Below, piece by piece: positions 49,979-52,994 of a stretch of 64,000 nucleotides of DNA. The position numbers and the translations under genes were made by a program. Source of the stretch: Pseudoselenomonas ruminantium (lineage in GTDB: Bacteria; Bacillota; Negativicutes; Selenomonadales; Selenomonadaceae); NCBI RefSeq assembly GCF_900142515.1, contig NZ_FRBC01000005.1, forward strand, positions 50,055-114,054. The letters are read 5' to 3'. Below the pieces are notes generated by a model. That model was given only the letters and a program-made list of their open reading frames with translations, searched no databases and was not told the DNA's origin. Every line of letters starts with the position of its first letter. Within the stretch, counting starts at the first letter, position 1.

Positions 49979-51040
49979 ATGCAGACAAGATGTATAAAAA
50001 TCGATAATATCACAGCAGGCAAAGAAGCGCTTCATTTCGCCGGTGAGCTTATCCGCAAGGGAGAAGTGGTGGCTTTCCCAACGGAGACGGTCTATGGACT
50101 GGGGGCCAACGGCCTGGATGCCGCAGCTTGCCGGAAAATCTATCAGGCCAAGGGACGCCCTTCGGACAATCCCCTGATTCTCCATGTGTCCAACCGCTCC
50201 ATGATTGACCAGATTGCAGCCAGGATTCCGGAAAAGGCGGAAAAGCTGATTGCGGCGTTCTGCCCCGGCCCGATTACCCTGATCTTGCCGCGGAAAGGCA
50301 TTGTGCCGGAGCAGATTACCGGCGGCCTGTCTACCGTGGGCGTCAGGATGCCGGAACATGATGTGGCCAGAGCTTTGATTGCCGCAGCTGGTGTGCCCAT
50401 TGCGGCTCCGTCGGCCAATATCTCGGGTCGTCCCAGCCCCACGACCGCAGAATCCGTGCTCGTGGATATGGAGGGCAAGATTCCCATGATCCTCGATGGC
50501 GGCGCCTGTGATTTCGGTGTGGAGTCCACCATTGTCGATGCCACGGGCGAACAGGCCGTTATCCTGCGCCCCGGCGCGATTACGAAGGAAATGCTCGAAG
50601 AAGTGCTGGGCGAGGGCAGTGTCGTGATTGACCCCGCTTTGGTCGGTGCAGATTCCGTCCCCAAGGCACCGGGCATGAAATACACCCATTACGCCCCCAA
50701 AGCGCCTCTGACCCTGATCGAGGGCATGCCTACCCGCATGGTGCGGGCCTTCCGCCGGGAAATCGAACGTTTGCAGGCGGAAGGACACAATGTGGGTGTG
50801 CTGGCCAGTCAGGAAGTCATTGCGGAACTTCACGACTTAATGCCGGCGGAAATGCTGGTGCCATATGGCCGGCAGGGCAATCTGCCCGCCATCGCCGCCA
50901 ATATCTACGAAGGCCTGCGCAGCTTCGACGACAAGGAAGCGGATATGCTGCTGGGAGAAGGCACCACCAGCGAAGGCCTGGGGCTGGCCATCATGAACCG
51001 GCTCCACAAGGCCAGCGGGTTCCGGACGATACAGGCTTAA
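49979..51040 (+). CDS. tsaC: L-threonylcarbamoyladenylate synthase (Sua5/YwlC type)
   Basis: Makes threonylcarbamoyl-AMP for t6A37 modification of tRNAs reading ANN codons. The 353-residue protein has the YrdC domain (VVAFPTETVYGLGAN, KGRPSDNPLILH, PSANISGRPSPTT) and the extra C-terminal Sua5 domain joined by a linker (KAPGMKYTHYAPKAPL), so it is the long Sua5 form. It lies 6 bp after prmC in the translation operon. Confidence 0.94.
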   Translation: MQTRCIKIDNITAGKEALHFAGELIRKGEVVAFPTETVYGLGANGLDAAACRKIYQAKGRPSDNPLILHVSNRSMIDQIAARIPEKAEKLIAAFCPGPITLILPRKGIVPEQITGGLSTVGVRMPEHDVARALIAAAGVPIAAPSANISGRPSPTTAESVLVDMEGKIPMILDGGACDFGVESTIVDATGEQAVILRPGAITKEMLEEVLGEGSVVIDPALVGADSVPKAPGMKYTHYAPKAPLTLIEGMPTRMVRAFRREIERLQAEGHNVGVLASQEVIAELHDLMPAEMLVPYGRQGNLPAIAANIYEGLRSFDDKEADMLLGEGTTSEGLGLAIMNRLHKASGFRTIQA

Positions 51041-51105
51041 ATTTCTGCAATGAACGTTTTTGACAGAAGAGACGTATGTTGACGAATGGGAACGCTTGAC
51101 GGATA

Positions 51106-51144
51106 AAAAAGGCCTCCGTGCGGTATGTGCACGGAGGCTTTTTT
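51106..51144 (+). terminator. Terminator of the prfA-prmC-tsaC operon
   Basis: A perfect 10-bp stem (51112-51121 with 51129-51138) followed by TTTTTT. Confidence 0.9.
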
Positions 51145-51163
51145 CGCTGGCAGAAGAACCTAA

Positions 51164-51272
51164 GAAAAAAGCCACCCTCGACCAAAAGGATGGCTTTTTA
51201 TTGTCCGAATAGCGGACCCCTGCGTCGCAGGCAGTCAACCTGCAACGCTGTTAGCTATGAAATATTTACCTT
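51164..51272 (-). ncRNA. Candidate divergent antisense RNA (antitoxin) to the 29-residue peptide
   Basis: A minus-strand extended -10 (TGC TACAAT, plus positions 51279-51287) would start an RNA near 51272 that ends at the T-rich hairpin 51166-51199. Its first 25 nt are the complement of 51250-51270, a near-copy of the ribosome-site and start-codon region of the peptide gene (51345-51366). It could therefore pair with and block that mRNA. No transcript data are available. Confidence 0.5.
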
Positions 51273-51305
51273 AACTGTATTGTAGCACACTGTAGCAGAA
51301 AATGC

Positions 51306-51311
51306 TATAAT
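51306..51311 (+). promoter_or_regulatory. Extended -10 of the 29-residue peptide gene
   Basis: TGC followed by TATAAT at 51306-51311. Its start site is divergent from the antisense promoter about 25 bp to the left. Confidence 0.6.
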
Positions 51312-51352
51312 AATTTTGCTGTGCGCCTCTCAGCGGAAGGGAGGTTAAGCTA

Positions 51353-51442
51353 ATGAAATATTTACCCCTGTTGCGTGACTTCCTGCTTTCTCTGATTGCA
51401 GGATTGGTAGCCAACTATCTGTTTACCGTGCTGGTGAAATAA
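51353..51442 (+). CDS. 29-residue hydrophobic peptide, candidate type I toxin
   Basis: Reads MKYLPLLRDFLLSLIAGLVA and then NYLFTVLVK: a single membrane-length segment with a terminal Lys. GGGAGG ends 8 nt before the ATG. A dedicated promoter, a strong terminator (51492-51522), and a repeated copy of its start region 96 bp upstream on a divergent RNA all argue that the frame is real. It does not resemble the other two small peptides in sequence. Confidence 0.6.
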   Translation: MKYLPLLRDFLLSLIAGLVANYLFTVLVK

Positions 51443-51491
51443 GCACAGCCACCAGTAAAGTACCTCGGGCAAAAGTCAGCCGTAGAGGGAG

Positions 51492-51522
51492 AAAGGCCGT
51501 CCAAGACCAATGGACGGCCTTT
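51492..51522. terminator. Bidirectional terminator
   Basis: A perfect 12-bp stem (51492-51503 with 51511-51522), A-rich on one side and T-rich on the other, between the 29-residue peptide gene and the phospho-beta-glucosidase gene. Confidence 0.85.
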
Positions 51523-51530
51523 CGCTTGTA

Positions 51531-52994
<1,464 letters not shown>

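Follow-up and report, generated by a model that had tools for sequence, protein, structure and literature searches.

A segment of 363 bp within a 64,000-nucleotide (nt) stretch of Pseudoselenomonas ruminantium DNA (contig NZ_FRBC01000005.1, positions 50,055 to 114,054; the whole stretch is called the window, and coordinates refer to it) is very probably a chromosomal type I-like toxin-antitoxin module of rumen Selenomonas bacteria, consisting of the gene of a 29-residue membrane peptide and a trans-pairing antisense RNA that arises from a copy of the toxin's start site. Comparisons made at the level of sequence established the module, the copy and its co-variation with its own toxin, mismatches that keep G-U pairs, the RNA helices, and the conservation of promoters and terminators. 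The features are listed below (SD, Shine-Dalgarno sequence).

51164-51527, no strand: whole module, 363 bp, bounded by its two terminators
51164-51272, minus strand: predicted antisense (antitoxin) RNA of about 109 nt, from the predicted fold
51165-51200, minus strand: antisense-RNA terminator GCCATCC-loop-GGGTGGC-TTTTTT; its loop UUGGUC (51185-51180) is complementary to the mRNA terminator loop
51203-51217, minus strand: second hairpin of the antisense RNA, GUCCGCUAUUCGGAC, from the predicted fold, with conserved GUCCGC
51222-51249, minus strand: first hairpin of the antisense RNA, with two-sided changes
51250-51270, minus strand: copy of the toxin start region and putative recognition segment of the antisense RNA, from alignment, co-variation and G-U bias
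51279-51287, minus strand: extended -10 element TGCTACAAT of the antisense RNA, predicted start near 51272
51303-51311, plus strand: extended -10 element TGCTATAAT of the toxin mRNA, predicted start 51318
51318-51324, plus strand: mRNA 5' end GCUGUGC, partner of 51443-51449, with compensatory variants in relatives
51326-51344, plus strand: hairpin CCUCU...GGGAGG holding the SD, a predicted fold whose sequence is conserved in the genus
51344-51366, plus strand: toxin start region, the proposed antisense target, hypervariable between relatives
51353-51442, plus strand: 29-residue hydrophobic peptide MKYLPLLRDFLLSLIAGLVANYLFTVLVK, putative toxin, conserved in relatives
51443-51449, plus strand: GCACAGC immediately downstream of the stop codon, pairing with the mRNA 5' end (51318-51324)
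51494-51522, plus strand: toxin-mRNA terminator, loop GACCAA at 51505-51510

A copy of the start region upstream of the peptide gene

The open reading frame (ORF) of the peptide is preceded by the SD GGAGG (51340-51344). An earlier note, made from this sequence alone, had described a near copy of the start region at 51250-51270. Local alignment found it with a score of 32; the match to 51344-51366 has two one-base gaps in its first part and is unbroken over ATGAAATATTTACC. Among 20,000 dinucleotide-shuffled versions of the 290 upstream bases, 5 reached this score, and it was the best of 142 like searches over the SD-preceded small ORFs of the window (next best, 26). The copy covers positions -9 to +14 of the start, that is the SD-ATG spacer, the start codon and about five codons, together with only the last base of the SD. 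The first nucleotides of the RNA had been proposed to be complementary to both the ribosome site and the start codon; this held for the start codon and had to be narrowed for the ribosome site, as the SD itself is hardly covered.

The minus-strand extended -10 element and the good terminator, between which the earlier note had placed the RNA, were both found where expected, and relatives have counterparts of the two -10 elements, the two terminators and the copy. Because the predicted RNA starts inside the copy, its free 5' end would be complementary to the sequence around the start codon of the mRNA beginning 46 bp away.

The copy changes together with its target

Among close relatives the body of the peptide gene is 86-87% identical at the DNA level, as against 53% for the hypervariable start region. 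When the start region changes between such relatives the upstream copy changes with it. Absence of the copy where the peptide is kept had been named beforehand as fatal to the proposal; an upstream copy matching its own start site was present in all close and in most diverged RDF-type relatives.

Sixty peptide loci were taken unselected, and the duplex energy of each upstream stretch was computed against every start region. None of 20,000 permutations reached the sum of the cognate duplexes. The energies were bimodal, with 37 loci having a clear upstream copy of their own and 23 lacking one. For modules residing in the same genome the own target was the best in 24 of 25 cases (cognate -27.8, non-cognate -14.7 kcal/mol). 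With class-level loci included, an upstream copy was found in 42 units from six genera of the family. The unselected test was relied on because another, 'distant' set of loci had been picked after the copies had been seen; a paired-cell figure obtained from the fitted alignment was not used as proof.

The mismatches between upstream copy and target included 44 transitions that keep a G-U pair in the antisense-mRNA duplex and 4 that break the pair. After thinning to less related loci the ratio was 35:3 (p=1e-7, base content allowed for). Since alignment scoring was equal for both types of transition, the bias was not built in. It indicates pairing between the plus-strand start site and an RNA transcribed from the minus strand of the copy, and together with the co-variation it supports the trans-pairing through a duplicated site that had been suggested for this locus. 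By both lines of evidence the module would encode, as type I systems do, an RNA complementary to the toxin mRNA.

Predicted structure of the two RNAs

The antisense RNA is predicted to fold, from 5' to 3', into 24 unpaired nt, hairpins of first 11 and then 5 bp, and the terminator. For 7 of the 11 pairs in the first hairpin, one or more of 25 sequences differ at both bases. The terminator had been missed by the pattern scan, whose loop limit was 8. In most upstream-copy loci the minus-strand -10 element lies at a near-constant distance from the start codon, and in 41 of them the plus-strand extended -10 element precedes the start codon by 33-48 nt (mostly 40-41).

The 5' end of the toxin mRNA can pair with the bases that follow the stop codon. 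This pairing is kept in the variants GCUACGC/GCGUAGC, GCUGCAC/GUGCAGC and GCCGUGU/ACACGGC, and none of 20,000 permutations attained the cognate sum, which points to a helix sequestering the mRNA 5' end as in par/fst. Each RNA has a terminator loop complementary to that of the other (UUGGUC, 51180-51185; GACCAA, 51505-51510), though the terminators stand at opposite ends of the module. With related modules counted alike, the mRNA loop GACCAA occurs in 13 of the 14 modules that have the antisense loop UUGGUC and in none of the 28 others.

The peptide

As in type I systems, the peptide is small (29 residues), has a hydrophobic core and is conserved. The window peptide had no match in Pfam, PHROGs or among solved structures, and one of 17 relatives reached Ldr_toxin (E 0.044), so that membership in the Fst/Ldr sequence families was not found. 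Against NF047374, the NCBIfam model of Clostridioides difficile type I toxins, it scored 18.5 bits, the curated cut-off being 60. A weak profile similarity to this model extends over residues 8-27 in 17 of 17 close peptides (best E 0.0019). Rfam gave nothing at threshold over 50900-51700.

Extent and distribution of the module

Homology with the relatives, which are named Selenomonas ruminantium or Selenomonas sp., breaks off at 51162-51165 and at about 51527. Because it ends at the terminators, and because the genes flanking it in the window (from a genome of 3.1 Mb) match elsewhere in the relatives, the module is self-contained and sits at different sites. Of 22 genomes of the genus, 18 had matches to a 371-bp query, and about half of them carried full or near-full units. 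There are up to several units per genome, and tandem units were seen twice: the pairs in L003 (G010:C77:31577-32309) and at G009:C124:7260-7992 consist of modules with unlike start sites, each of which is matched by its own copy. Matches of 39-66 bp in six loci (L015, L016, L017, L018, L019 and L028) comprise the antisense-terminator end only and represent either shared terminator sequence or remnants of lost modules.

The insertion sites are unrelated and mostly ordinary intergenic positions. One group of near-identical units is flanked by the hsdS and hsdM genes of a type I restriction-modification operon. Among them are the module of the mobilizable plasmid pSRC6 of strain TAM6421 (NC_017070.1, 8218-8532; L150:4001-4315) and those of L023 and L024; they lie on the opposite strand, with the peptide left without annotation. 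Restriction-modification loci were checked as the usual home of the module, and this did not hold generally.

A profile made from diverse peptides varied too much to serve in the pattern scan, and a narrower alignment was used. Profile search found relatives of the peptide in 57 of 189 genomes of the family, and the class-level search added a few weak ones from other families. No peptide relative outside the Negativicutes was detected in 398 sampled genomes of the phylum (E<=1e-4), and phage records and viral contigs yielded no relative.

Relatives with the copy downstream

Units that lack the upstream copy mostly encode peptides with KWLD as their last residues; in these units a copy of the own start site lies about 50-200 nt beyond the stop codon. 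It is followed by a minus-strand -10 element, and in the examples inspected a strong hairpin separates the stop codon from the copy. These units have the convergent layout of par. For 24 units the cognate energy taken together lay beyond all 50,000 permutations, and the G-U bias was 39:7 (p=0.007, base content allowed for). Loci with a downstream copy and a convergent minus-strand promoter are the following.

L051, L054, L060, L061, L068, L070, L071, L082, L083, L086
L090-L093, L096, L097, L122, L137-L139, L145

A profile built from upstream-copy peptides alone detected the downstream-copy peptides (e.g. E 4e-8 in genome G049), which shows that this device occurs on either side of homologous peptide genes.

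An antisense half standing alone was found in genome G015 (MAG SIG241; L030:1500-1628, G015:C28:4593-4723), with promoter, hairpins and terminator and no toxin gene. The best target of its RNA 5' end was the window toxin (-22.0 kcal/mol), compared with -6.8 and -16.3 for the scored toxins of its own genome. This orphan could possibly protect against a foreign addiction module, or be what is left of a decayed one.

Proposed mechanism and alternative explanations

According to the proposed mechanism the plus-strand mRNA would encode the 29-residue membrane peptide, a putative toxin, and the divergent small RNA, starting inside the start-site copy, would act on it in trans. In the window's subgroup the first contact would probably be made by the complementary terminator loops. 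The antisense 5' end would then zip onto the start site and block ribosomes, the mRNA meanwhile being kept silent by the SD hairpin and by the helix that joins its 5' end to the post-stop bases. If the module were lost, a longer-lived mRNA could outlast the antisense RNA and stop growth as in par_pAD1.

Several points weigh against a toxin-antitoxin module. We infer both transcription and toxicity; neither promoter has a clear -35 element; and no curated toxin family was matched above its cut-off. Loop-loop pairing is a feature of the window's subgroup and not of the family at large. The loci behind the G-U and permutation tests are related, and thinning lessened this kinship without removing it.

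If the antisense pair were real and the peptide no toxin, the gene might encode a small membrane or signalling peptide tuned by the RNA. That we infer the peptide's toxicity, and that most modules occupy ordinary chromosomal intergenic sites, would fit such a role, which we nevertheless consider unlikely: the module is mobile as a whole, is represented by several paralogues per genome that do not cross-pair and also occurs on a plasmid, as expected of addiction modules, its peptide weakly resembles type I toxins, and its mRNA carries the multiple locks of par/fst RNA I. Control could also be mainly transcriptional, with face-off promoters within 46 bp excluding each other and RNA pairing being secondary. 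The two -10 elements are indeed closely and near-constantly spaced in the upstream-copy loci, and overlapping polymerase footprints are expected at promoters so close. This explanation is very improbable, however, as it accounts neither for the co-varying copies nor for the G-U bias, and the downstream-copy relatives have no such promoter pair. Tandem and partial modules do show that duplication happens here, but an idle upstream copy, duplicated by chance or left over, deserves practically no credence, since co-variation in dozens of loci and the 44:4 bias cannot come from drift of such a copy.

With a toxin-antitoxin module as the preferred reading, the chances appear about even that the whole set forms one Negativicutes peptide superfamily in which each toxin has a private antisense RNA made from a start-site copy. 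Two layouts would be in use, the Selenomonadaceae having the copy upstream with divergent transcription and other relatives having it downstream with convergent transcription. A start site and its copy would drift together through G-U intermediates, yielding dozens of largely non-cross-reacting pairs on one scaffold, several of them per genome, and orphan antitoxin RNAs such as that of L030 could protect against addiction by another module.

Comparison with known systems

The literature searched, in which subscription journals were thinly covered so that absence is unproven, yielded no type I system for Selenomonas or Negativicutes and no description of this family. The modules appear to form a hitherto undescribed family of toxin-antitoxin systems, within a class for which no type I system was found there. 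Their dozens of matched RNA-target pairs on one scaffold should make the evolution of antisense specificity and orthogonality traceable base by base.

The weak profile similarity to the C. difficile type I toxins (NF047374) is accompanied by a shared use of an RNA antitoxin, but those toxins have about 50 residues, and their characterised antitoxin genes overlap them and are convergent (PMC6563280).

The earlier note had likened the locus to zorO/orzO. The divergent layout and the unrelated sequence were borne out. With zorO-orzO/zorP-orzP of Escherichia coli the module shares a 29-residue toxin, a divergent antitoxin RNA and tandem paralogues with private specificity. Pairing is through the free 5' end of the antitoxin, 18 nt in orzO and, by prediction, about 20 here (PMC3919570). 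The likeness did not extend to the position of the target: in zorO the target lies about 73-91 nt ahead of the start codon (PMC3919570), in a long 5' untranslated region, whereas here that region has about 35 nt and the start codon itself is covered (-9 to +14).

The anatomy of the toxin mRNA is closer to RNA I of par/fst. The par_pAD1 system (Fst, RNA I-RNA II) is characterised by an upstream helix, an SD stem-loop, start-site repeats and terminator-loop kissing (PMC7472228). Both systems have a hydrophobic peptide of about 30 residues, an antisense RNA across a repeat of the toxin start site, an mRNA 5' end held in an upstream helix, the SD in a stem-loop, complementary terminator loops (here in the window's subgroup), and paralogues that do not interfere because their repeats differ (PMC7472228). 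However, par is convergent with one shared bidirectional terminator, a layout found in the downstream-copy relatives, whereas the RNAs of the window are divergent with one terminator each; moreover, the antisense RNA has two extra hairpins, and there is no sequence match to the Fst families.

With no Fst sequence match, a layout wrong for par and a target position wrong for zorO, the module is by the tests run a member of neither, and works like par/fst and zorO/orzO combined. Because homologous peptides have the antitoxin gene on either side, the family connects these two plans.
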